Assembly: GCA_002011815.1 (NCBI GenBank)
Contig: MTOV01000015.1
Span: 197,785 to 261,784, forward strand
Direction: 5' to 3'
Length of the DNA stretch: 64,000 nt
From: Nitrospirae bacterium JdFR-86
GTDB taxonomy: Bacteria > Nitrospirota > Thermodesulfovibrionia > Thermodesulfovibrionales > JdFR-86
Below the pieces are notes generated by a model. That model did no database searches. It was not told where the DNA came from and saw nothing but the letters and a program-made list of their open reading frames with translations. Below, in pieces: positions 13,732-54,140 of this stretch (position 1 is its first letter; the number at the start of each line of letters is the position of its first letter). Made by a program: the position numbers and the translations under genes.

Positions 13732-14724
13732 ATGAGAGCCTTATTTTCGTTTATTGTTGTTATAGCACTTGTTGCAATTGTCTTTGTTGGGGTAAAAGGG
13801 GCAAACTTAGAGTTCCTTTTCGGAGTGATTATTCCATATGCGGCTCTTGCGACGTTTATCATTGGGTTCATTTACCGGGTTGTGAAGTGGGGTCGCTCAC
13901 CTGTTCCGTTCCATATTCCTACGACGTGCGGACAGCAGAAGACACTGCCGTGGATTAAGGACAGTAAGATTGAAAACCCTTCTACTACAGCCGGTGTCAT
14001 AGCACGTATGGCGCTTGAAGTGCTTGTTTTCCGCTCCCTGTTCAGGAATCTGAAGACTGACCTGAGGGAAGGACCGCGGCTTGCTTACGGTTCGGACAAA
14101 TGGCTGTGGCTGGCAGGACTGGCTTTTCATTGGTCATTCCTTATTATTGCATTCAGGCATCTGAGGTTCTTTATGCAGGATGTGCCTGTTGTGGTGCAGT
14201 GGGTTGAGGGGCTGGACAGCTTCCTCCAGATAGGCGCACCGTTGCTCTATATTACAGATGTGATTATTATCACGGCTGTAACCTATCTGTTCCTGAGAAG
14301 GGTGTATATCCCGCAGGTGCGTTACATATCACTTGCTGCTGATTATTTCCCTCTCTTTCTGATACTGGGTATCGCTATTTCAGGTGTTCTGATGAGGTAT
14401 TTCATCAAGGTGCATGTTGTAGGGGTCAAGGAGCTGGCTATGGGACTGGTCAGTTTTAACCCGACGATTCCGGAAGGCATCGGGGTTATCTTTTATATTC
14501 ATCTGTTCCTTATCTGTGTTTTGTTTGCGTACTTCCCGTTCAGCAAGCTGATGCACATGGGCGGAGTGTTTTTGAGTCCGACGAGGAATCTTGCAAACAA
14601 CAGCCGTATGGTCAGGCATGTGAATCCGTGGAATTATCCAGTTAAGGTTCATACATATGAAGAATATGAAGAAGAATTCAGGGAAAAAATGAAAATGGCT
14701 GGATTACCAGTCGAGAAGGAGTAG
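13732..14724 (+). CDS. dsrM: Sulfite reduction-associated complex DsrMKJOP, cytochrome b subunit DsrM
   Basis: NarI-like multi-TM protein; C-terminal PTRNLANNSRMVRHVNPWNYPVKVHTYEEYEEEFREKMK; followed by dsrK. Confidence 0.92.
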   Translation: MRALFSFIVVIALVAIVFVGVKGANLEFLFGVIIPYAALATFIIGFIYRVVKWGRSPVPFHIPTTCGQQKTLPWIKDSKIENPSTTAGVIARMALEVLVFRSLFRNLKTDLREGPRLAYGSDKWLWLAGLAFHWSFLIIAFRHLRFFMQDVPVVVQWVEGLDSFLQIGAPLLYITDVIIITAVTYLFLRRVYIPQVRYISLAADYFPLFLILGIAISGVLMRYFIKVHVVGVKELAMGLVSFNPTIPEGIGVIFYIHLFLICVLFAYFPFSKLMHMGGVFLSPTRNLANNSRMVRHVNPWNYPVKVHTYEEYEEEFREKMKMAGLPVEKE

Positions 14725-14730
14725 TGAAGT

Positions 14731-16380
14731 ATGGCAAAAGGTACGCCAAAACCTGATGAACTGTCGAGGATAGACTACACACCACCTCAGAAGGAGTGGA
14801 TGGACACTCCTGTAAAGCTTAAGCCAGGCATGTATTGTTGGGGTGCCAAGGCTAAGAATCTGCAAGCAGTCGGCTTCCCTAATGCACGGGACTGGACGCC
14901 GGCTGACGAGGACTGGAAACTGCCGGAAAACTGGGAGTGGACAGTCCTTGAGGGAATTTATGACAGGCTTAAGAAATACCGTTCTTTCCAGCTCTTTCTT
15001 GACATATGTGTAAGGTGCGGAGCCTGTGCTGACAAGTGCCACTTCTATATCGGCTCTGGCGACCCAAAGAATATGCCTGTCTTAAGGGCAGAGCTCTTAA
15101 GGTCTGTATACAGGAGGCATTTCACCTTTGGTGGAAAGCTTCTCGGCAGGATCGCCGGAGCAAGAAAGCTCACTCTCGATGTGCTTAAGGAGTGGTGGTA
15201 CTATTTCTTCCAGTGCACGGAATGCCGTCGTTGTTCAGTCTTCTGCCCGTACGGCATAGACCAGGCAGAGATTACGATGATGGGCAGGGAGCTTTTGAAT
15301 CTGCTCGGACTGAACATTGACTGGATTCAGGGCCCGGTAGCGAACTGCTATAAGAAAGGCAACCATCTCGGTCTTGAGCCTCATACGATAATGAGCAACA
15401 TCGAGTTCATGCTCGATGACATAGAGAGCATAACAGGCATCAGGATTGAGCCTTCTTTCAACAGAAAGGGTGCTGAGATACTCTTTGTCACGCCGTCAGG
15501 AGACCTTTTTGCCGACCCTGGCACTTACACCTGTATGGGCTATCTGATGCTTTTCCACGAACTTGGGCTTGACTACACATGGAGCACTTATGCTTCCGAG
15601 GGCGGAAACTTCGGTTTCTTTACCACCAACGAGATGGCAAAGCGTCTTAACGCAAAGATATATGCTGAGGCAAAAAGGTTGGGTGTGAAGTGGATACTCG
15701 GAGGAGAATGCGGTCACATGTGGAGGGTAGTCCACCAGTATATGGACACGTGGAACGGACCTGCTGATTTCCTTGAAGAGCCTGTTTCTCCGATAACCGG
15801 CACGAAATTCGAGAATGCAAAGACCACAAAGATGGTGCATATTGCAGAGTTTACTGCTGACCTTATCAGGCACGGCAAGCTGAATCTCGACCCGAGCAGA
15901 AACGACCATCTGAAGGTCACCTTCCATGACTCATGTAACACCTCAAGGGGTATGGGTATCTTTGAGGAGCCGCGCTATATCATCAAGAATGTGTGTAACA
16001 ATTTCTACGAGATGCCTGAAAACACAATCAGGGAGAAGACTTTCTGCTGTGGAAGCGGCTCTGGTCTGAATGCAGGCGAGAATATGGAGTTGAGGATGAG
16101 GGGCGGCTTGCCAAGGGCAAATGCAGTGAAATACGTGCATGAAAAGTACGGAGTGAATATGCTTGCCAATATCTGTGCGATTGACAGGGCTGCCCTTTCA
16201 ACGTTGATGGATTATTGGGTTCCGGGGGTGGGAGTAACCGGCGTTCACGAACTCGTGGCTAATGCCTTGGTTATGAAAGGTGAAAAGAAGAGGACAACCA
16301 ACCTGCGTGGTGAACCCCTTCCGGGAGTAGAAGAAGAGGAAGAAGAAGGTAAAGAGGAAAAGGAAGAACAAGGAGGATAA
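14731..16380 (+). CDS. dsrK: DsrMKJOP iron-sulfur subunit DsrK (HdrD-like)
   Basis: Two 4Fe-4S motifs (CVRCGACADKCH, CTECRRCSVFCPYG), HDSCNTSRG and FCCGSGSG CCG-type motifs. Confidence 0.93.
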   Translation: MAKGTPKPDELSRIDYTPPQKEWMDTPVKLKPGMYCWGAKAKNLQAVGFPNARDWTPADEDWKLPENWEWTVLEGIYDRLKKYRSFQLFLDICVRCGACADKCHFYIGSGDPKNMPVLRAELLRSVYRRHFTFGGKLLGRIAGARKLTLDVLKEWWYYFFQCTECRRCSVFCPYGIDQAEITMMGRELLNLLGLNIDWIQGPVANCYKKGNHLGLEPHTIMSNIEFMLDDIESITGIRIEPSFNRKGAEILFVTPSGDLFADPGTYTCMGYLMLFHELGLDYTWSTYASEGGNFGFFTTNEMAKRLNAKIYAEAKRLGVKWILGGECGHMWRVVHQYMDTWNGPADFLEEPVSPITGTKFENAKTTKMVHIAEFTADLIRHGKLNLDPSRNDHLKVTFHDSCNTSRGMGIFEEPRYIIKNVCNNFYEMPENTIREKTFCCGSGSGLNAGENMELRMRGGLPRANAVKYVHEKYGVNMLANICAIDRAALSTLMDYWVPGVGVTGVHELVANALVMKGEKKRTTNLRGEPLPGVEEEEEEGKEEKEEQGG

Positions 16381-16386
16381 ACAAGG

Positions 16387-16785
16387 ATGTATGACGGAAG
16401 CAAAATAATTGCTGGACTTATTGTCTTTGTCGGTTTGTTCACATTTCCTTTCCTCTATAATATGGGGAAAGCCAGCGCTAAGCCTGAACCGAAGATTGAT
16501 ACGCCGGTTATCCAGCAATTGGCGGAAAAGAAATGTGTAGAGCCCAAGTCCTTTATGAGAGCCGAACACATGAAGCTCCTGAATGAGTGGAGGGATTCGG
16601 CTATCCGCAAGGCTAAAAGAGTTTATGTGGGTGCAGAAGGGAAAGAATATACTATCAGTCTCCAGAATACTTGTATGAAGTGTCATTCCAATAAGAAAAA
16701 GTTTTGCGATGAATGCCATAATTACATGGCAGTAAAACCCTATTGCTGGGATTGTCATCTTGAGCCGAAGGAGAAAAAACTATGA
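16387..16785 (+). CDS. dsrJ: DsrMKJOP triheme cytochrome c subunit DsrJ
   Basis: Three CXXCH motifs (CMKCH, CDECH, CWDCH) and N-terminal membrane anchor; position between dsrK and dsrO. Confidence 0.92.
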   Translation: MYDGSKIIAGLIVFVGLFTFPFLYNMGKASAKPEPKIDTPVIQQLAEKKCVEPKSFMRAEHMKLLNEWRDSAIRKAKRVYVGAEGKEYTISLQNTCMKCHSNKKKFCDECHNYMAVKPYCWDCHLEPKEKKL

Positions 16786-17570
16786 GTATAAACAGGAGAG
16801 AATTCTTAAAGATAGCAGGTATTTCCCTACTCGGGTTTGGAGGAGCCTCTGCTGTTAAGAAACATCTCATGGGGGACAACTGGGTTGAGGCGTCAGAGGT
16901 CTTGCGCAGTCCAGATGCCTTGACTGCACAGCAATGGGCGATGGTCGTTGATGTCAGAAAAATCACAACAATGAACGACTATAAAAAGATTGTGGAGGCG
17001 TGCCACAGCATTCATAATGTTCCTGATTTTCGCAATCCAAAGGATGAGATTAAATGGATATGGAAAGATACCTTTGAGCACACCTTCCCGACATCAGGAC
17101 ACCCATATATGGAAGAAGGCATCGAAGAGAAGCCGTTCCTCCTGCTGTGCAATCACTGTGAAAATCCTCCATGCGTGAGAGTCTGCCCCACAAAGGCTAC
17201 GTTTAAGAGCAAAGACGGGATAACTATGGTGGACTTTCATCGCTGTATCGGATGCAGGTTCTGCATGGCTGCTTGTCCTTATGGTGCGAGAAGCTTTAAC
17301 TGGAGAGACCCTCGTCCGTTTATCAAAAAGACGAATCCAGAGTTTCCAACGAGGACAAAGGGTGTTGTGGAGAAATGCAATTTCTGCGCTGAAAGGCTTG
17401 CCAAAGGACTTGAGCCTGCCTGTGTAGAGGCATCCAATGGTGCAATGGTCTTTGGCGATCTGAAAGACCCTGATTCAGAGGTCAGAAGGATTCTCAGGAC
17501 ACATTATACGATTGTCCGCAAACCAGAACTTGGAACACGTCCCAGTGTTTACTATGTGATAGGAGGTTAA
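16782..17570 (+). CDS. dsrO: DsrMKJOP periplasmic ferredoxin subunit DsrO
   Basis: Tat-like start MSINRREFLKIAGISLLG; CNHCENPPCVRVCPTKAT and CIGCRFCMAACPYGARSF motifs. Confidence 0.92.
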   Translation: MSINRREFLKIAGISLLGFGGASAVKKHLMGDNWVEASEVLRSPDALTAQQWAMVVDVRKITTMNDYKKIVEACHSIHNVPDFRNPKDEIKWIWKDTFEHTFPTSGHPYMEEGIEEKPFLLLCNHCENPPCVRVCPTKATFKSKDGITMVDFHRCIGCRFCMAACPYGARSFNWRDPRPFIKKTNPEFPTRTKGVVEKCNFCAERLAKGLEPACVEASNGAMVFGDLKDPDSEVRRILRTHYTIVRKPELGTRPSVYYVIGG

Positions 17571-17574
17571 GACA

Positions 17575-18729
17575 ATGCTTGAAAAGGCACTAACCGGCAG
17601 TCGAAGATACTGGTTATGGATATGCGTGCTACTTGCCCTTAGCGGGATTGGTTTTATAGCCTACCTCCGGCAGTTTACTTACGGGTTAGGAATAACCGGC
17701 ATGAGCAGAGACGTTACATGGGGACTTTATATAGGTCAGTTTACCTTTTTGGTTGGTGTTGCTGCCTCTGGCGTCATGCTTGTGCTTCCTTATTATCTGC
17801 ATAATTACAAGAAGTTCGGCAAGATTACGATTCTTGGTGAGTTCATGGCGGTTGCTGCAGTTACGATGTGCGTGCTGTTCATCTTCGTGGACATGGGACA
17901 GCCTATGAGGATTATGAATGTGATGCTTCATCCTACACCGAACTCGATTATGTTTTGGGACAGCGTTGTGTTGTTGGGCTATCTAATGCTTAACATAATA
18001 ATCGGCTGGACTGTTCTTGGTGCAGAGCGTAAAGAGGTGCCGCCGCCTTCATGGGTGAAGCCTCTTATATATCTTTCAATTGCATGGGCACCCAGCATTC
18101 ATACAGTTACGGCGTTTCTTTACGCTGGTCTTCCGGGAAGGCATTTCTGGCTGACTGCTATTATGGCTGCCCGATTCTTGGCTTCGGCGTTTGCCTCAGG
18201 TCCGGCGCTTCTTATCCTCCTGTGCTTTATTATAAGAAGGACGACCAGATTCGACCCGGGAAAGGAAGCCATACAGACTCTCGGAAAGATAGTAACTTAC
18301 TTTATGATTACAAATGTATTCTTCTTCGGCCTTGAAGTCTTTACCGCCTTCTATAGCCAGATACCCGGACATATGCACAGCTTCGAGTATCTGTATGCAG
18401 GCCTGGAAGAGCACAGGGTGCTTGTCCCTCTGATGTGGACTTCAGCAGTTCTTGCGATAGTGGCTGTTATTCTTCTGATAAACCCTGCTACACGCAAGAA
18501 CGAGATAACACTTGGACTTGCCTCTGTGGCAGTGTTTCTCTCCCTGTGGATAGACAAAGGGTTTGGTCTGGTTATAGGCGGTTTTGTGCCCAACCCGTTT
18601 GAGACAGTAACCGAATATTGGCCTACATTGCCCGAGACTCTGATTACAATCGGAGTATGGGCGGCTGGGTTCCTGATACTTACCGTCCTTTACAAAGTGG
18701 CAATCTCGGTCAAAGAAGAGCTGGCGTAA
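17575..18729 (+). CDS. dsrP: DsrMKJOP membrane subunit DsrP (NrfD/PsrC family)
   Basis: Multi-TM NrfD-like protein at the end of the dsrMKJOP array. Confidence 0.92.
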   Translation: MLEKALTGSRRYWLWICVLLALSGIGFIAYLRQFTYGLGITGMSRDVTWGLYIGQFTFLVGVAASGVMLVLPYYLHNYKKFGKITILGEFMAVAAVTMCVLFIFVDMGQPMRIMNVMLHPTPNSIMFWDSVVLLGYLMLNIIIGWTVLGAERKEVPPPSWVKPLIYLSIAWAPSIHTVTAFLYAGLPGRHFWLTAIMAARFLASAFASGPALLILLCFIIRRTTRFDPGKEAIQTLGKIVTYFMITNVFFFGLEVFTAFYSQIPGHMHSFEYLYAGLEEHRVLVPLMWTSAVLAIVAVILLINPATRKNEITLGLASVAVFLSLWIDKGFGLVIGGFVPNPFETVTEYWPTLPETLITIGVWAAGFLILTVLYKVAISVKEELA

Positions 18730-19690: not shown

Positions 19691-20110
19691 TTAGAAAAAG
19701 AGCACATGTTTTGCGTCTTCAATAGCTTTCTGGATTTCTGAGAACGGGACAACCCTTATGGTTTTGTCTGCGCCCATTTCCTCTGCATCCGGTATGCTGT
19801 CTTCTGGTATTCCGTATTTTTCGAGGTCTTCCTTGCATACGAGCACGTCGAGGTCAACGAGGAGTGCGTTTTTCAGGTGGGTTTCCGTGCTTGTTATACC
19901 GTATGTATCCATGGCTTTCTGTCCTTTTTGAAGACCCAGCACTCCTTCGCCTATAAAGCATAATGTTGGAGTTACTGTATCGCCGTCCTCAAGCAGTATC
20001 TCAACGGTCTGATAGGCTATTGCGTGGGTTATTGCCAGTCTTGAGGTTTCCCCTTTATATTGAGGTCTTTGGACTACGAAGGCAAGTTTTACGTCACCCA
20101 TATTATTCAC
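19691..20110 (-). CDS. DsrE/DsrF-like family protein
   Basis: DsrE/F-like fold signature; overlaps the upstream DsrE-like gene by a few bases. Confidence 0.75.
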   Translation of the reverse strand: MNNMGDVKLAFVVQRPQYKGETSRLAITHAIAYQTVEILLEDGDTVTPTLCFIGEGVLGLQKGQKAMDTYGITSTETHLKNALLVDLDVLVCKEDLEKYGIPEDSIPDAEEMGADKTIRVVPFSEIQKAIEDAKHVLFF

Positions 20111-20468
20111 CTCCTATATGAAGTACCCTGTCTGCGCCGTGTATCTTTGCGAGATACCAGTGCATTGCGTTCCACTGAATACCCTCGATCCCTTCTGGTT
20201 TCTGGATGCCTCTTGCCACTGTGCATGCCTCGCATGTACACATCTCCACGCCTTTTTCAAGAAGTGCCTTCAGGTGTTTTTCTCCGGTAGAGTAGTCTTT
20301 CAGGTGTTTCTGGTTGGCTTTGACAGAGCCGGTAGCATTTCCTGAGAACCAGATGCTTACCTTATGACCTTTATCTACAGCAGCAGCTGCAAGTTTTAAG
20401 GCGAAGTCGTAAGCCATATTGCCTACAAGGCCAGGAAAAACGCCTATAGTTAGAGTCGCCATATTCAA
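20103..20468 (-). CDS. DsrE-like protein with candidate active-site cysteines
   Basis: LLEKGVEMCTCEACTVARGIQ; clustered with DsrF-, DsrH- and TusA-like genes. Confidence 0.78.
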   Translation of the reverse strand: MNMATLTIGVFPGLVGNMAYDFALKLAAAAVDKGHKVSIWFSGNATGSVKANQKHLKDYSTGEKHLKALLEKGVEMCTCEACTVARGIQKPEGIEGIQWNAMHWYLAKIHGADRVLHIGGE

Positions 20469-20942: not shown

Positions 20943-21956
20943 GTGCGAAGTTTGTTGAATATCATTAAGGTTGTTTTACTGACTGTATTTGTATTTTTCA
21001 CAGCCTGCGCCCAGATACCTGAGGAGAAACCGCCTGAACTTTACTGGCCTCTTCCGCCTGAACGACCCAGAATTAAATTCGTAGACCTTGTGCTCGGAAG
21101 TATTGATGTTACTGGTGTAAAATCCGGTAAGTTCAAACAACTGCTGTTTGGTGAAGAAGGGGAAGTAAGGTTTGTAAAACCCCTGTTTGTTGCCGTTAAA
21201 AACAATGTCATGTATGTCACAGATGTTATCGGTATTCATGTGTATGATTACAACAAAAAGGAGTTTATGATTTTAGGCAGCGGGCTTTTGAGAAATCCGA
21301 CTGGTATTGATGTGGCTTCTGACGGAAGGATATTTGTTGGGGATTCTGCAATAAGGCAGGTGTTTATCTTTAATCCGAGCCCCAGACGTGTAACGATGGT
21401 TGCAAAGCCCGGAACATTTGGTTCTCTTGGCGGAATTGCAGTGGATGAACCCCGCGGAAGATTTATAGTCGTCGATGCCAAAAAGCACAGGGTAAGTGTT
21501 TACAGTCTCGATGGAAAGTTCTTATTCTCTTTTGGTAAAAGAGGGATTAACCCGGGCGAATTTAATTTCCCTTATGATGTTGCAGTTGATGCTGAGGGAA
21601 GAATGTATGTTGTGGACTCTGGAAATTTCAGGGTTCAGATATTTGACAAAGAGGGGAAGTTTTTGAGGGCATTTGGTAAGGTTGGAACCTTCCCTGGCTT
21701 TTTTGCAAGGCCAAAGGGTATTGCCCTTGACTCAGAGGGACATATATATGTAGTTGATGCTGCTTTCGGAAACTTCCAGATATTTGATTCAAAAGGCGTT
21801 GTCTTGCTCTCCGTGGGTGCGAACGGCTCTGAACCAGGTAAGTTCTCTCTCCCTGTAGGTATAGATATAGACGAAAACGACAGGATCTATGTGGTTGACC
21901 AGATGAACCAGCGAGTTCAGATACTACAGTATTTAAAGTACCCTGATGAGAAATAA
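20943..21956 (+). CDS. NHL-repeat (six-bladed beta-propeller) lipoprotein
   Basis: Lipobox-like FFTAC at the N-terminus; repeated GIAVDEPRGRFIVVDAKKHRVSVYS / FPYDVAVDAEGRMYVVDSGNFRVQIF units. Confidence 0.85.
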   Translation: MRSLLNIIKVVLLTVFVFFTACAQIPEEKPPELYWPLPPERPRIKFVDLVLGSIDVTGVKSGKFKQLLFGEEGEVRFVKPLFVAVKNNVMYVTDVIGIHVYDYNKKEFMILGSGLLRNPTGIDVASDGRIFVGDSAIRQVFIFNPSPRRVTMVAKPGTFGSLGGIAVDEPRGRFIVVDAKKHRVSVYSLDGKFLFSFGKRGINPGEFNFPYDVAVDAEGRMYVVDSGNFRVQIFDKEGKFLRAFGKVGTFPGFFARPKGIALDSEGHIYVVDAAFGNFQIFDSKGVVLLSVGANGSEPGKFSLPVGIDIDENDRIYVVDQMNQRVQILQYLKYPDEK

Positions 21957-22067: not shown

Positions 22068-22583
22068 ATGCGGTTAGTATGTTTGTTAGTGGCTATTCTT
22101 ATTGTTATACCTGCTGTGAGTTTTGCAGCAGGTGCGCATGAGTCTCTTAATTGCACAGGGTGCCATGGCATCCATACGGCAAAAGGGGATTTGATATTTG
22201 CGATTGCACCCAACCAGAAGAGTCTTAACCCGAGGACAAAGAAGCCTTATACCGGTGTAACTGCGCTTTGCCTGGGCTGTCATGAGAGTGCAGAAAAGGG
22301 CGGAATGGGGATTATGCCTATTTCTGCAGCAATGAGTCACCCTTACGGTATTGCTCCTAATCCAAAGGTAGCTTCTGTGCCGGCAGTAGCCCTGAGAGAT
22401 GGAAAGCTTGGGTGTGTAGGCTGTCATGACCCCCATCCATCCAACCCGAATTACAAGTATCTTAGGGTTGATACAAAAGGTGGTGTGCAGATGCAGAAGT
22501 TCTGCAGTATGTGTCATCCGTCCAAGTCAGGAAAGAAAATATTGCGTAAAGAGATATTTAACAGCATGGACGAGCGTAAATAA
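22068..22583 (+). CDS. Tetraheme c-type cytochrome, secreted
   Basis: Signal peptide; four CXXCH motifs (CTGCH, CLGCH, CVGCH, CSMCH). Confidence 0.9.
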   Translation: MRLVCLLVAILIVIPAVSFAAGAHESLNCTGCHGIHTAKGDLIFAIAPNQKSLNPRTKKPYTGVTALCLGCHESAEKGGMGIMPISAAMSHPYGIAPNPKVASVPAVALRDGKLGCVGCHDPHPSNPNYKYLRVDTKGGVQMQKFCSMCHPSKSGKKILRKEIFNSMDERK

Positions 22584-22659: not shown

Positions 22660-25600
22660 GTGAAGAAGGCTTTTTGTATCTTCATAGCCGTTGCGTGTTT
22701 TGTTATAACCTTCACTGTTGCTGTTAAAGATACTTTTTCCCTGCAAGTTGAGGGTTGTGTCACCTGTCACGGAGACAAGGACAAGGGAAAGATTCTTCAC
22801 CCGGCTTTAAACATGGGTTGTGAGTCCTGCCATACCGAGGCACACCAGAGAGAGAGAAGATTCCCTAAAGGTCTGGCAGCAGAAGGCAGCCAGTTATGCT
22901 GGATGTGCCATGACAGTTCAAAGTTTTCAAAGAAGGCTACACATCCGCCTGTTGAGGCAGGCATGTGCACAAGCTGTCATGACCCGCATGTCTCTGAAAA
23001 CCCGAAACTTCTTATCTCAGAGTCTCCGACGATATGCTATAACTGCCATGACAGCGCTGAATTTAGCAAAAAGACGACTCATATGCCTGTGGCAGGCGGG
23101 ATGTGCACAGGCTGTCATGACCCGCATGCAAGTGACTCTGACAGGTTACTCCTTTCTGATGATATCTGCTATAACTGCCATGACAAGACTAAATTTGAGA
23201 ATAAGACAGTGCACATGCCTGTGGCAGGCGGGATGTGCACAAGCTGTCACAATCCACATGCAAGCGACTCTAGCAAGTTACTTGTTTCTGATGATGTCTG
23301 CTATAACTGCCATGACAAGGCAGGTTTTGAGGGCAGGACAGTGCATATGCCTGTGGCAGGCGGGATGTGCACAGGCTGTCATGACCCGCATGCAAGTGAC
23401 TCTGACAAGTTACTTGTTTCTGCTGATATCTGCTATAACTGTCATGACAAGACTGCATTTGAGAATAAAACAGTGCATATGCCTGTAGCAGGCGGGATGT
23501 GCACAAGCTGCCACAATCCACATGCAACCGAGGCTGATAAGTTACTTGTTTCGGCTGATATCTGCTATAGCTGTCATGACAAGACTAAATTTGAGAATAA
23601 GACAGTGCATATGCCTGTGGCAGGCGGGATGTGCACAAGCTGCCACAATCCACATGCAACCGAGGCTGATAAGTTACTCCTTTCAGACAATATATGCTAT
23701 AACTGCCATGACAAGACTGCATTTGAGAATAAGACAGTGCATATGCCTGTAGCAGGTGGGATGTGCACAAGCTGTCACAATCCACATGCAAGTGAGGCTG
23801 CCAAACTGCTTGTTTCAGACGGGATATGTTTTAACTGCCATGACAGCACTGCGTTTGAGGATAAGACGGTGCACATGCCTGTGGCAGGTGGGATGTGCAC
23901 GAGCTGTCATACTCCACATGCAAGCGATTCTGCCAAGTTACTCCTTTCTGATGATGTCTGCTATAACTGTCATGACAAGGCGGCATTTGAAAAGCAGACA
24001 GTGCATATGCCTGTAGCAGGCGGGATGTGTACAAGCTGCCACAATCCGCATGCAAGCGGGACTGAGAAATTACTCCTTTCGGATAATGTATGTTTTAACT
24101 GCCATGACAGCACTGTGTTTGAAAAGAAAATAACGCATGCTCCGGTGCTGGCAGGGATGTGCACAGGGTGTCACAGTCCGCATGCAAGTGATTCTGCCAG
24201 CTTGCTCCTTTCGGATAATGTATGTTTTAACTGTCATGACAGCACTGTGTTTGAAAAGAAGACAGTGCATGTACCTGTGGCAGCAGGGATGTGCACCGGA
24301 TGTCATACTCCACATGCAAGCGAGACCGAGAAATTACTCCTTTCGCCTGAAGTGTGTTTTAATTGTCATGACAAGGGATCGTTTTCAGGCAAAAAGCTGA
24401 TACATGCGCCTGTGGCAGCAGGGATGTGCACGAGCTGCCACAATCCACATGCAACCGAAGCCGACAAGTTACTCCTTTCAGACAACATCTGCTATAACTG
24501 CCATGACAAGGCAGGTTTTGAGGGCAGGACAGTGCATATGCCTGTGGCAGGTGGGATGTGCACAAGCTGCCATACCCCGCATGTAAGTGACGCTAACAAG
24601 TTACTCCTTTCGGATGATGTCTGCTATAACTGTCATGACAAGTCAGCGTTCGAGAAAAAGACGGTGCACATGCCTGTAGCAGCAGGGATGTGTACTGGAT
24701 GTCACAGCCCGCATGCGGCCGAGGCTGACAAGTTACTCCTTTCAGACAACATCTGCTATAACTGCCATGACAAGACTGCATTTGAGAATAAGACAGTGCA
24801 TATGCCTGTAGCAGGTGGGATGTGCACGAGCTGTCACACCCCGCATGCAAGTGACGCTAACAAATTACTCCTTTCGGATGATGTCTGCTATAACTGTCAT
24901 GACAAGTCAGCGTTCGAGAAAAAGACGGTGCACATGCCTGTGGCAGCAGGAATGTGTACGAGCTGTCATCTGCCGCATGCAAGCAAAATGGAGAAGTTAC
25001 TCCTTACAGCTGATATCTGCTATAACTGCCATGAAAAGGCAGGTTTTGAGGGCAAGACAGTGCACATGCCTGTGACAGCAGGGATGTGCCTGGGGTGTCA
25101 TCTGCCGCATGCAAGTGACTCTAACAAGTTACTCCTTTCTGATGATGTGTGCTATAACTGTCATGACAAAGGAATGTTTTCAGGTAAAGAGCAGGTTCAT
25201 GCACCTGTGGCAGCAGGAATGTGTACAAGCTGTCATCGTCCTCATAAATCCAGCGTTAAGAAACTGCTGCGTCGGGATATGCCTTTCCTGTGTGTGACGT
25301 GTCATGAAAAAGAAGAGTTTACAAAGAGGGACAAACACGGTCCTGTTTATATAGGCATGTGTATGGGTTGCCATGAACCGCATCAGGCTTCAGAGGAGAA
25401 ACTCCTTGTGAATTCTCTGCCTGACCTTTGTTTCGAGTGCCATAGAGAGTCACCGTTTACAAGGGACAATATTCATCCTCCTGTGGAGGCGGGTCTGTGC
25501 ATGGACTGTCATCTTCCTCATTCATCCAGATACAGAAATCTGCTTAAAGCGAGAGATAATTCTGTTTGTAGGGAGTGTCACTCCAACGTATTTGCAGAGC

Positions 25601-25788
25601 CTCATGCTGTCCAGGGATTAAAAAACAAAGGACATGTCTTAAGGGCAAGGAGAGACCCAAAAAGAAGAGGCAGACCTTTTACATGTACGAGCTGTCATAA
25701 CCCGCATAGTTCGGAATGGATAAGACTTTTTAGATATAAAGCAAATAGTCCTTTTGAGCTTTGCGGGCACTGTCATCCAAAGAAATAA
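22660..25788 (+). CDS. Giant multiheme c-type cytochrome (45 CXXCH motifs; paired-CXXCH repeats)
   Basis: Manual count of 45 CXXCH in 1042 aa; repeating unit CYNCHDKxxFENKTVHMPVAGGMCTSCHNPHASxxxKLLLSDxI; N-terminal signal sequence. Confidence 0.95.
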   Translation: MKKAFCIFIAVACFVITFTVAVKDTFSLQVEGCVTCHGDKDKGKILHPALNMGCESCHTEAHQRERRFPKGLAAEGSQLCWMCHDSSKFSKKATHPPVEAGMCTSCHDPHVSENPKLLISESPTICYNCHDSAEFSKKTTHMPVAGGMCTGCHDPHASDSDRLLLSDDICYNCHDKTKFENKTVHMPVAGGMCTSCHNPHASDSSKLLVSDDVCYNCHDKAGFEGRTVHMPVAGGMCTGCHDPHASDSDKLLVSADICYNCHDKTAFENKTVHMPVAGGMCTSCHNPHATEADKLLVSADICYSCHDKTKFENKTVHMPVAGGMCTSCHNPHATEADKLLLSDNICYNCHDKTAFENKTVHMPVAGGMCTSCHNPHASEAAKLLVSDGICFNCHDSTAFEDKTVHMPVAGGMCTSCHTPHASDSAKLLLSDDVCYNCHDKAAFEKQTVHMPVAGGMCTSCHNPHASGTEKLLLSDNVCFNCHDSTVFEKKITHAPVLAGMCTGCHSPHASDSASLLLSDNVCFNCHDSTVFEKKTVHVPVAAGMCTGCHTPHASETEKLLLSPEVCFNCHDKGSFSGKKLIHAPVAAGMCTSCHNPHATEADKLLLSDNICYNCHDKAGFEGRTVHMPVAGGMCTSCHTPHVSDANKLLLSDDVCYNCHDKSAFEKKTVHMPVAAGMCTGCHSPHAAEADKLLLSDNICYNCHDKTAFENKTVHMPVAGGMCTSCHTPHASDANKLLLSDDVCYNCHDKSAFEKKTVHMPVAAGMCTSCHLPHASKMEKLLLTADICYNCHEKAGFEGKTVHMPVTAGMCLGCHLPHASDSNKLLLSDDVCYNCHDKGMFSGKEQVHAPVAAGMCTSCHRPHKSSVKKLLRRDMPFLCVTCHEKEEFTKRDKHGPVYIGMCMGCHEPHQASEEKLLVNSLPDLCFECHRESPFTRDNIHPPVEAGLCMDCHLPHSSRYRNLLKARDNSVCRECHSNVFAEPHAVQGLKNKGHVLRARRDPKRRGRPFTCTSCHNPHSSEWIRLFRYKANSPFELCGHCHPKK
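23035..25260 (+). repeat. 132-bp tandem repeats (44-aa diheme units), roughly 17 copies
   Basis: Near-identical nucleotide blocks recur, e.g. gtgcatatgcctgtggcaggcgggatgtgcacaagctg and ctataactgccatgacaag, spaced about 132 bp. Confidence 0.9.
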
Positions 25789-25865
25789 ACAATTGATTGA
25801 GAGTTCCGTTTTTGATATAGTTGCCTTTGAACAGGAAGATTGTCTCTGATGCAGGGAGGTATTGG

Positions 25866-27152
25866 ATGAAGATACAGGGCTTTGTTATTACACTGCTGTT
25901 GATTGTTTTCTGTTGTGCTGTAACAAATGCATTAGCGGCAGATGTTGATTGTCTTATGTGCCATCCAGACCTTTCCGAAGGCAAATCAGTGCATCCTGCC
26001 GTGAGTATGGGATGTCTCTCCTGCCATACAGGGGTTGATGCAACAGACATTCCTCACAAGATGACCAGCGGGATAAATAAAGGACTTTCTGCTGAGCCGC
26101 CTGAGCTTTGCTTTGGATGTCATGACAAAGGAATGTTCTCAGGTAAAAAGACGGTTCATATGCCTGTGGCAGGTGGAATGTGCACAGGATGTCACAGCCC
26201 CCACGCAAGCAGTTCGGATAAACTGCTTCTTTCAGATGAAATATGCTTTAATTGTCACGATAGATCATTGGTTGAGAAGAAGAACGTTCATCCTCCAGTA
26301 GCCGGCGGTATGTGTGTCATGTGTCACAGTCCTCACCAGTCGGATAATGAAAAGCTTCTTGTTGCAACCTCATCTGATTTGTGTTTTAGATGCCACGATA
26401 AGACGAAGTTTGAAGGGAAAACAGTGCATATGCCTGTAGGAATGGGCATGTGCACCAGTTGTCATTATCCGCATGGTTCTGATAATGAAAAACTGTTGAT
26501 TACGGACAAAGCAGAGCTGTGCTTTAATTGTCACGACAGGTCACTGGTTGAGAAAAAGAATGTTCATCCACCTGTAGTCGGTGGCATGTGTGTCTTATGT
26601 CATAGTCCTCACCAGTCGGACAATGAGAAGCTTCTTGTTGCTGCTTCTTCTGAGTTGTGCTTCAACTGCCACGACAAGACAAGGTTTTACGGACCAACGA
26701 TACATGCACCTGTAGGAATAGGCATGTGCACGTCCTGCCATGATCCGCATGGAGCAGAGAATAAAAGATTATTGATTACGGGCGAATCAGAGCTGTGTTT
26801 TAATTGTCATGATAAATCTGAGTTTTTCAAGAAGTCTGTACATAAACCTGTGGAAAGCGGCGAATGTCTTAAATGTCATGTGCCACATGCAAGCCAGAAC
26901 GAGACATTGCTTGTCAGAAAGGGCAGTGTGCTGTGCAGAAAGTGTCATCCGCAGGTAGGTAGACGGCCTCATGCAATAGCAGGGTTTGACAGACCAGGAC
27001 ACCCTATAAGGGGAAGAAAAGACCCGAACAGGCCGGGTAAAACCTTTGGCTGCTTAAGTTGTCATCTGCCGCATACATCCGAGTGGCCTACACTTTTCAG
27101 ATACAAGGCAAATAATGTATTCGACTTGTGTATATACTGTCATGAGATGTAG
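25866..27152 (+). CDS. Multiheme c-type cytochrome (17 CXXCH), paralog of the preceding gene
   Basis: Manual count of 17 CXXCH; N- and C-terminal parts resemble the 1042-aa protein (C-terminal SSEWIRLFRYKANSPFELCGHCH vs TSEWPTLFRYKANNVFDLCIYCH). Likely start 25866 with GGGAGG RBS. Confidence 0.93.
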   Translation: MKIQGFVITLLLIVFCCAVTNALAADVDCLMCHPDLSEGKSVHPAVSMGCLSCHTGVDATDIPHKMTSGINKGLSAEPPELCFGCHDKGMFSGKKTVHMPVAGGMCTGCHSPHASSSDKLLLSDEICFNCHDRSLVEKKNVHPPVAGGMCVMCHSPHQSDNEKLLVATSSDLCFRCHDKTKFEGKTVHMPVGMGMCTSCHYPHGSDNEKLLITDKAELCFNCHDRSLVEKKNVHPPVVGGMCVLCHSPHQSDNEKLLVAASSELCFNCHDKTRFYGPTIHAPVGIGMCTSCHDPHGAENKRLLITGESELCFNCHDKSEFFKKSVHKPVESGECLKCHVPHASQNETLLVRKGSVLCRKCHPQVGRRPHAIAGFDRPGHPIRGRKDPNRPGKTFGCLSCHLPHTSEWPTLFRYKANNVFDLCIYCHEM

Positions 27153-51522: not shown

Positions 51523-52293
51523 TTGGGTCATATTAGATTAGGACGATTGCCTAAACGAAAGAACTGGATACAGGTCTGCGAACTCTTATCTTCAGAATCT
51601 ATAAATTCACAAGCTTTAGCTGTTTCTATATCCAAAGCGGCTCAGAATAGTCTTTTACGGGATGAAAATCAGAGAGGTCTCTTTCAGACTGTTAGATATC
51701 TTATTAGACTTGTACAAGCATCTCGAACTGAAGACTTTAGCGGGGCTCTTAAAGATATAGGTATAGTTTTTGACCAGGAAGAATCGGGAATGGTTCTGCT
51801 CGGTCACATTTTAGAAAAAATAAAAGATGATATCCACCAAAATAAAGGGAACTCCCATCTTGATAGTATTGCATCTACAGCATTTCAAGAGACTCTTACA
51901 AAAACTATCCACCAATACGCTCAAACGCTTTTCGGCTGTTCAATTGAAGATGTAAGAAGTGCTTTTAAACGTTATTCTTCCAAAAATAAATTTGGAGAGA
52001 TAGCTCGTTTGCTTTTCAGTACTTACCTCACAAGAATATTCCAATATACAATTGACCGAGCAATTTCTGAGAATGTTGGAGTAGGTAAGAAATTTAATGA
52101 TGTTAACAGTGTTTTAGAGTTTCAAAAAGCTATCAAAACTTATTGTTGGGATATAAGCAAAATAGTCGAAGAATACTCAGGAGGGTGGTATTCAAAACAT
52201 GAATGGGAGGGAACCCTTTCGGATGCTGAAATAAAACGGTTCACCAGTTACGCCTTAAAAAAGCTATTAAGTGAAATCAACGAAGATAGATGA
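51523..52293 (+). CDS. Uncharacterised protein, first gene of two-gene cassette
   Basis: 256-aa ORF with AGGAGG RBS before a TTG start; start overlaps none, end overlaps the next gene by 4 bp (translational coupling); no recognised domain. Confidence 0.8.
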   Translation: MGHIRLGRLPKRKNWIQVCELLSSESINSQALAVSISKAAQNSLLRDENQRGLFQTVRYLIRLVQASRTEDFSGALKDIGIVFDQEESGMVLLGHILEKIKDDIHQNKGNSHLDSIASTAFQETLTKTIHQYAQTLFGCSIEDVRSAFKRYSSKNKFGEIARLLFSTYLTRIFQYTIDRAISENVGVGKKFNDVNSVLEFQKAIKTYCWDISKIVEEYSGGWYSKHEWEGTLSDAEIKRFTSYALKKLLSEINEDR

Positions 52294-54140
52294 GTAATAC
52301 ATTGCTATGCATATGTGAAGGCGCTCCACAGCCTAACATTGTATTCGATAAAACTATTCATTTATCTCATCTTGGTACTAATGCGAATATTCGGCTTGGA
52401 ATAGAAGACTATTACAATAATCTTGCAGGTAAACTTGATGATATATCTAAAGACCTTTTGAGAATTGCAGCATATATTTATGTAGCAGATACATCAGTGA
52501 GCAGGGGGGGTGATGCAGATATTTGGGGGAAAAATTGGCGGAGACAATTTCACTTAGCTATTCCTGTGTTGCTACCAGATATTTGGAACGATTCGACAGT
52601 TAAAGACCTATTGAAAAGTGTAGTTGATTTTTTAACTGAAGACTCTTTTGAATTCACTTTTACACAATGGCAGGATCCAATACGACAAACATTTCTAAAT
52701 TTATTTAAAACACCTAATGAAGGAATTGGAGCTGATTCAGTTGTTTTATTTTCTGGAGGATTAGATTCATTATATGCTGTTGGTAAGCTTACCGTTACTG
52801 AAAAAAGAAGGCCTCTCCTAATAAGTCATCTAAGTACCAATAAAGTAGTATCTCGACAGCGTTCTATTATTCAGGCAATCAAGAACCATCATAAGTCTAG
52901 TACTGACTGGTCTTTTCCTCATTGGGCAGTACGTATTAGTCGTATGAGAAGTGAGGGGAAAGAAAGAACTCAAAGAAGTCGCTCATTCCTTTATGCAACA
53001 CTTGGGGTTACAGCGGCTCATGCTTTAAATGTTTCCGATGTATTTCTTAGTGATAATGGTATTGTAAGTATTAATCTTCCGCCTTCTTCTCAAACTGTTG
53101 GGGCTATGGCTTCGAGAACTACCCACCCAAAATTTATATCAAATTTTAACACTCTAATGGAAAAAATAGGCTTACCAAAGGTGAAGAATAGCCTATTGCA
53201 TTTAACAAAGGCTGAGGTTGTAAGCGGCTTACGTAACATTGGGTTTGATAATCTTATTCCATTAACTGTATCCTGTGCACGAATACATGGTATGTCGAAA
53301 TTCCAACCGCATTGTGGTACTTGTACACAATGTCTTGATAGACGATTTGCCACTATTTATGCAAATTTAGAAGCTCAAGACCCTCCGGAACAATATGTAA
53401 AGGATATTTTCAAAGATTCTATAGATACTCTATATGACAGAATGCATGCTGAAAATTTAATCCGTCATTGCATCAATTTGCGAACCTTGTCTATTGAATC
53501 TTTTCTTGAGATATTTCCAATGGTGTGGGATTGTGTGGATTTATTTGATAATCCAGAAGAAAAAATTCAAGAGCTTTATGATCTTCATCAACGTTATTCA
53601 GAACAGGTCTTACAGGCAATTAAAATAAAGCAAGGTGAGCTTTTTAATGATTTTGTGAGTGGGATAATATCAAGGGAGAGCATATTAGGTCTTATTGGGA
53701 GCGGTGACCACCTGAAAACATCTATTGATAGAATCGCTACAGAGCTGGGTGATTTGTTTGCAAGAAGACTCCCGATTGTCTTCCAGACAAAGAAACCAGC
53801 AAGAGAAAGAGATGTTCAAGATGCAGCACAGGCACTTTTATCTGAGTTTAGCGAAAATATTCAACGTGAAGCTCCACAAGTCAGCTATAGTGTTGTAAAC
53901 AGACGACCTGACTTTTCAAAAGATAGATCTCAACTATTTATCGAAATGAAGTTAGTTAAAGCTAAAAAAGATGTTAGCAAAGTGATAGATGAAATATCTG
54001 CTGATATAAGACCATACTTAGATCATAGTAGAGGTATTCTTTTTTGTATCTACGATACTGACCGCAATATTGTTGATGATGATAAGTTTAAAGAACCATT
54101 TAAGAATGACACGAATGTGTTTATAAAAATAATAAGATGA
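52290..54140 (+). CDS. QueC-like PP-loop protein with C-terminal PD-(D/E)XK nuclease-like motif
   Basis: PP-loop VVLFSGGLDSLYAVGKL; QueC-like zinc motif SCARIHGMSKFQPHCGTCTQCLDRR; C-terminal RRPDFSKDRSQLFIEMK (D-x10-E-x-K). Confidence 0.8.
   Translation: MSNTLLCICEGAPQPNIVFDKTIHLSHLGTNANIRLGIEDYYNNLAGKLDDISKDLLRIAAYIYVADTSVSRGGDADIWGKNWRRQFHLAIPVLLPDIWNDSTVKDLLKSVVDFLTEDSFEFTFTQWQDPIRQTFLNLFKTPNEGIGADSVVLFSGGLDSLYAVGKLTVTEKRRPLLISHLSTNKVVSRQRSIIQAIKNHHKSSTDWSFPHWAVRISRMRSEGKERTQRSRSFLYATLGVTAAHALNVSDVFLSDNGIVSINLPPSSQTVGAMASRTTHPKFISNFNTLMEKIGLPKVKNSLLHLTKAEVVSGLRNIGFDNLIPLTVSCARIHGMSKFQPHCGTCTQCLDRRFATIYANLEAQDPPEQYVKDIFKDSIDTLYDRMHAENLIRHCINLRTLSIESFLEIFPMVWDCVDLFDNPEEKIQELYDLHQRYSEQVLQAIKIKQGELFNDFVSGIISRESILGLIGSGDHLKTSIDRIATELGDLFARRLPIVFQTKKPARERDVQDAAQALLSEFSENIQREAPQVSYSVVNRRPDFSKDRSQLFIEMKLVKAKKDVSKVIDEISADIRPYLDHSRGILFCIYDTDRNIVDDDKFKEPFKNDTNVFIKIIR

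Follow-up and report, generated by a model that had tools for sequence, protein, structure and literature searches.

What is a cytochrome with 45 predicted c-type hemes on a single chain, how did it become so long, and what might it do in the cell envelope? These questions are raised by one gene in the 64,000-nucleotide stretch of Nitrospirae bacterium JdFR-86 DNA that was analyzed here as a whole (the window). The host is of a sulfate-reducing type, from a Thermodesulfovibrionales-type order, and its genome carries dsrA besides the dsrMKJOP operon of the window. The features discussed below are the following.

13732..18729, plus strand: dsrMKJOP operon, neighbor of the cytochrome cluster (triheme DsrJ at 16387-16785; NF038038, 193 bits)
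20943..21956, plus strand: NHL six-bladed beta-propeller lipoprotein, opening the apparent operon (PF01436, E 2.7e-32; lipobox-like ...FFTAC)
22068..22583, plus strand: tetraheme cytochrome, 4 CXXCH (a close homolog in 50/177 genomes of the order)
22660..25788, plus strand: 45-heme cytochrome, 1042 aa (GTG start; Sec signal peptide; lipobox not clear)
22756..22896, plus strand: N-terminal cap, hemes 1-2, residues 33-79 (spacing 21 then 25-33, common to 60 homologs)
22897..25566, plus strand: twenty two-heme units, hemes 3-42, residues 80-969 (units 2-17, a lineage-specific expansion)
25567..25785, plus strand: C-terminal cap, hemes 43-45, residues 970-1042 (spacing 39 then 26, family-conserved)
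25866..27152, plus strand: 17-heme paralog, 428 aa from its ATG ("short" orthologous group in the tree)

Motifs, ligands, and integrity of the array

The product of the open reading frame at 22660-25788 contains 45 CXXCH motifs in 1042 residues, as the first-pass annotation had counted, against a mean of 0.72 and a maximum of 4 in 2000 shuffles of the same protein. Neither CX3CH nor CX4CH motifs were found in it, and its only two cysteines outside the motifs (residues 6 and 13) both lie in the signal peptide. The motifs are spaced by 21 and 23 residues alternately, a pattern that bears out the earlier description of paired-CXXCH modules strung in a chain, and 20 two-heme units stand between 2 hemes at the N terminus and 3 at the C terminus. 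The unit length of 44 residues proposed at first holds for 15 units, while the others measure 45 to 47. An overlapping 222-residue plus-strand frame at 22820 was set aside as a shadow of the repeat.

Histidines outside the motifs also number exactly 45, located about 15 residues after odd motifs and 7 residues after even ones. Since there is one non-motif histidine per motif (45/45), bis-His ligation of every heme is possible by count, and the initial claim that the conserved histidines would suffice for it is upheld. Heme 43 has two such histidines and heme 45 has none, which suits the C-terminal cap, where H982 and H992 are invariant. The same supply was observed in the relatives, with at least one non-motif histidine per heme in 62/62 family members, 9 invariant ones for 9 hemes in the last-nine-heme region (57 sequences), and 17 for the 17 hemes of the paralog.

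An assembly error had been named at the outset as a result that could undo this picture, and a repeat number inflated in this way might be suspected in a tandem array known from a single genome in 25 contigs. The array itself speaks against it. Tandem Repeats Finder (TRF) reports a 132-bp repeat in 16.2 copies with 79% matches, but the 132-bp units differ in DNA (mean identity, 78%), and exact internal repeats extend to 77 bp at most. Third codon positions are 2.5 times as diverse as positions 1 and 2. An array of such divergent units could be resolved by short reads; moreover, the gene is well away from the ends of its 262-kb contig, and independent long relatives with 33 and 35 hemes exist. 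Between units, dN is 0.17 and dS 0.89 (mean dN/dS, ~0.19), and we read the sequence as an old coding array under purifying selection. Given this ratio and the short exact repeats, a collapse or expansion artifact appears unlikely, and an inflated repeat number is scarcely credible.

Fold and family assignment

The doubled-CXXCH domain was recognized far above its thresholds (PF09699, 793 bits versus a cutoff of 20.6; TIGR01905, 801 bits versus 25.2), in 22 stretches. The DmsE/MtrA model TIGR03508 gave 8 matches (409 bits summed over repeats), while the decaheme model NF041028, which passed its cutoff only by summing repeats, was left out of the membership. By sequence, profile (E 7.6e-26), and fold, MtrA from the Mtr complex of Shewanella ranks first among relatives of solved structure.

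Structure prediction, which had been proposed as a check, succeeded in part. The full-length AlphaFold model, built with 24 relatives, reached a pLDDT of only 38, whereas an AlphaFold (AF2) model of the last nine hemes, built with 57 relatives, reached a pLDDT of 91.3 and a pTM of 0.83, with a repeating secondary-structure pattern. The only PDB fold match of the nine-heme model was 6r2q_A, MtrA (E 2.9e-6; TM 0.63; RMSD 5.4 Å; probability 1.00); this entry is labeled cystathionine beta-synthase in the sequence file, and the fold library names it as the Mtr complex. Considering this RMSD, the curvature of the rod may differ from that of MtrA. The modules had been likened to cytochrome c3/c7, and the corresponding Pfam models do match the repeats (PF14537, 150 bits, and PF14522, 122 bits, both summed over repeats). 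However, no c3/c7 structure was among the PDB fold matches of the nine-heme model and, as the one match is MtrA, the fold modeled for the last nine hemes looks closer to that of MtrA than to c3/c7.

A family of capped rods and the origin of length

Scanning the C-terminal part of the 45-heme protein against genome contigs returned at least 80 loci, nearly all from Nitrospirota, and the family is present in 104 of 177 genomes of the order. Among the matches listed, 60 proteins have a two-heme N cap and a three-heme C cap like those of the 45-heme protein. Heme counts across the capped homologs vary widely, always by even steps: they are odd in 60/60 canonically capped homologs from named genomes (7 to 23 hemes, with long outliers of 33 and 35) and in 32/32 of a second set that partly overlaps the first, although the species are related and these sets are not independent trials. 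The rods thus lengthen by heme pairs between fixed caps and hold 5+2n hemes each, with n=20 in the 45-heme protein. The latter is the longest frame of the family among those listed, followed by proteins with 35 (L068) and 33 (L087) hemes; plasmid records yielded only weak partial matches to it. Related 8-heme proteins (L148-L158), encoded after a 13-heme cytochrome in Geobacter, Acidobacteria, Zixibacteria, and Nitrospirota, have the same C cap and a different N end, a long heme-free N-terminal domain.

In a tree of the C caps, "long" and "short" orthologous groups are distinguished, whose genes stand side by side in the same gene cluster. The 45-heme protein and a 23-heme protein form a sister pair (support, 99/89); the 17-heme paralog groups with 9-13-heme proteins. 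Across orthologs of the 45-heme protein, heme number ranges from 19 to 45. Units 2-17 have their nearest counterparts among themselves (0.75-0.91, versus 0.59-0.73 outside), whereas units 1 and 18-20 find theirs in other genera, mostly in units at corresponding positions toward the ends. These affinities indicate that it was the middle that grew in this lineage, flanked by conserved ends and probably by duplication of pair units. The 35-heme protein of genome G002 was considered as an ortholog and rejected; its host belongs to another genus of the same family, and the C-cap tree places the protein in a different part. Lengthening thus occurred more than once, with the 35-heme protein as an independent case.

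Gene neighborhood

The NHL lipoprotein, tetraheme, 45-heme, and 17-heme genes form an apparent operon; for the last of these, the listed TTG start at 25821 probably lies upstream of the true one. This gene order (NHL, 4-heme, long, short) recurs in L087, L114, L116, L084, L083, and L085, and an aminotransferase gene and folK follow the cluster in the first four of these loci and not in L083 and L085. The NHL gene adjoins the long cytochrome in L069/L084, L070/L116, L071/L085, L087, and L114. The tetraheme cytochrome is strongly conserved (54-72% in most of its matches), sometimes on contigs other than that of the long rod; its profile matches OmcS (6ef8) at E 7.2e-6 over hemes 1-2 only, in the N-terminal part of OmcS, and it is a possible filament subunit.

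DsrO/DsrP adjoin the cytochrome cluster in the window and in the sister genome with the 23-heme gene (L084/L069) only. The interval between the cytochrome cluster and dsrMKJOP holds two minus-strand genes of the DsrE family (19691-20468), which L084 has as well. No inner-membrane quinol dehydrogenase or other defined partner adjoins the 45-heme gene, and no porin was found next to it in the window or in the long-rod cluster of related loci.

Elsewhere in the genome, an MtrB_PioB barrel (C2:123418-125382) lies ~97 kb from the rod cluster, directly after a 9-heme MtrA homolog, and this pair (L061:7415-10383) is a separate outer-membrane conduit. A giant multiheme cluster of the same genome (L063:13629-19000 and L064:1-6266) encodes proteins of 1211 and 1168 residues with 11 and 18 hemes and MtrC/MtrF-like domains, together with a 921-residue FG-GAP/NHL/BACON protein. 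Two genes at 51523-54140 of the window look like an unusual Qat-type defense variant, as judged from domain matches: a 256-residue protein with no family match precedes a 616-residue fusion of a QatC-like (QueC-like) part (E 4.4e-62) with a C-terminal DpnII/MboI-like nuclease (PF18742, E 5.4e-15).

Proposed function and alternative readings

We consider it probable that the 45-heme protein is a periplasmic, single-chain, all bis-His, MtrA-like rod with fixed caps that carries or buffers electrons. The chain, with its two-heme N cap, 20 MtrA-like pair units, and three-heme C cap, would be exported and its hemes attached and packed as in MtrA, so that electrons could hop along it. SPOR domains, which bind peptidoglycan in known proteins, are fused N-terminally to the 21-heme and the 9-heme rod alike in Nitrospirae bacterium JdFR-88 (L071:7289-10148; L071 and L085 are the same genome, the only one with SPOR on rods), and their presence on these orthologs favors a periplasmic place. 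There, presumably with the 17-heme and tetraheme proteins, the rod would carry or buffer electrons on their way between the outer membrane and partners in the inner membrane or the periplasm. Extrapolating from the 80 Å that ten hemes occupy in MtrA, a rod equally straight would be ~39 nm long. Conduction across the periplasm may be envisaged on this scale, and a coupling of the rod to DsrMKJOP is a guess based on the gene neighborhood. The most ambitious version, in which a length-tunable wire of ~39 nm bridges the periplasm, couples the outer membrane to inner-membrane DsrMKJOP, and has its reach adjusted by heme pairs, is improbable.

The main rival to a conducting rod is an electron-storage capacitor, whose hemes would buffer respiratory electrons in the periplasm and whose chain length would set capacity, not reach. 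Ortholog length varies freely over the range given above, with no obvious constraint; the near-uniform units suggest similar heme potentials; and GSU1996, with 12 hemes, has been discussed as a capacitor (PMC10138318). Nevertheless, fixed caps at the ends of every member suggest defined sites of electron entry and exit, which a pure store would not need, and we regard storage as unlikely, though worth serious attention.

It is quite improbable that the 45-heme protein or the tetraheme is exported to the outside and polymerizes as OmcS and OmcE do, an idea to which the weak but significant match of the tetraheme to part of OmcS lends something, as do the beta-propeller genes that also flank the Oet conduit of ANME-partner sulfate-reducing bacteria (SRB) (PMC12246660). 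Polymerization had been raised in the first-pass annotation, with a comparison to the OmcS, OmcE, and OmcZ filaments as a check, and that comparison lends it no support: no subunit of these filaments was a fold match in the PDB search of the nine-heme model, no filament match of the 45-heme protein beats MtrA (OmcE, 7tfs, E 1.6e-6), and no hallmark of the OmcS/E/Z type was seen in a family that behaves as monomeric rods with fixed caps. No outer-membrane secretion gene is adjacent, and the SPOR-bearing orthologs point to peptidoglycan. Very improbable, too, is a rod whose end sits in an MtrB-type barrel, that is, a very long MtrA. The MtrA-like fold and the MtrB/PioB barrel elsewhere in the genome would agree with it, but that distant barrel adjoins its own 9-heme MtrA homolog, and the long-rod cluster has no conserved barrel. 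An Oet-type conduit was rejected, as the 26-heme protein is absent from this genome at E 1e-60 and the cluster is without PPIase and porin.

A carrying or buffering periplasmic rod is therefore the reading that we retain, and the cell envelope may possess, in the 45-heme protein, a long electrical wire that is built in. Long heme chains known so far are mostly either polymers of small cytochromes or short, fixed rods. The present family looks like a natural series of rods, each a single chain, in which the ends stay the same and the heme number runs from 7 to 45. With such a series, one could test directly, by inserting or removing pair units, how wire length affects electron transfer. The rod is also a candidate periplasmic electron path beside DsrMKJOP; to our knowledge, the periplasmic partner of DsrJ is not settled.

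Comparison with known systems

In the open-access papers searched, we found no description of capped rods growing by heme pairs or of the 45-heme member. Tandem heme wires, in contrast, are already known (GSU1996), and a record in heme number was ruled out, as ANME proteins reach 86 hemes and clusters exceed 100; 45 hemes is, by motif count, the longest found here in this rod family. In MtrA, the decaheme of Shewanella MtrCAB, ten bis-His hemes extend over 80 Å with edges 3.9-6.5 Å apart (PMC7198977), and both proteins would be linear chains of exclusively bis-His c-type hemes. The rod shares the fold and sequence features of the MtrA/DmsE family but departs from its about ten hemes and adjacent MtrB-type barrel: it has 45 hemes instead of 10, fixed 2+3 heme caps, and no adjoining barrel, and its gene adjoins those of an NHL lipoprotein and a tetraheme.

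OetA and OetB of ANME-partner SRB have 26 and 16 hemes and are encoded with PPIase and beta-propeller genes (PMC10553843, PMC12246660). The locus described here likewise has a pair of large paired-CXXCH cytochromes and a beta-propeller gene, but the sequences are different, the Oet counts are even, and neither a PPIase nor an OetI-type porin is present. Separate from the rod cluster, Nitrospirota also hold clusters of 26-heme and 15/16-heme proteins with PPIC rotamase and NHL genes (L072, L075, L079, L160, and L162), which resemble the Oet-type DIET cassette of ANME-partner SRB.

GSU1996 of Geobacter is a dodecaheme protein, an extended monomeric heme wire of 12 nm (PMC10138318), and shares with the rod the tandem arrangement of heme modules on one polypeptide in a linear array. 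Unlike its triheme c7 domains, each with one His-Met heme, the rod has two-heme units, predicted to be all His-His, and 45 hemes. Finally, the giant multiheme cytochromes of ANME archaea, with 20 to 86 hemes (PMC9012536), are comparable in heme number and reach larger ones; they carry S-layer or other large non-heme domains, whereas the rod of JdFR-86 is made of uniform pair repeats.
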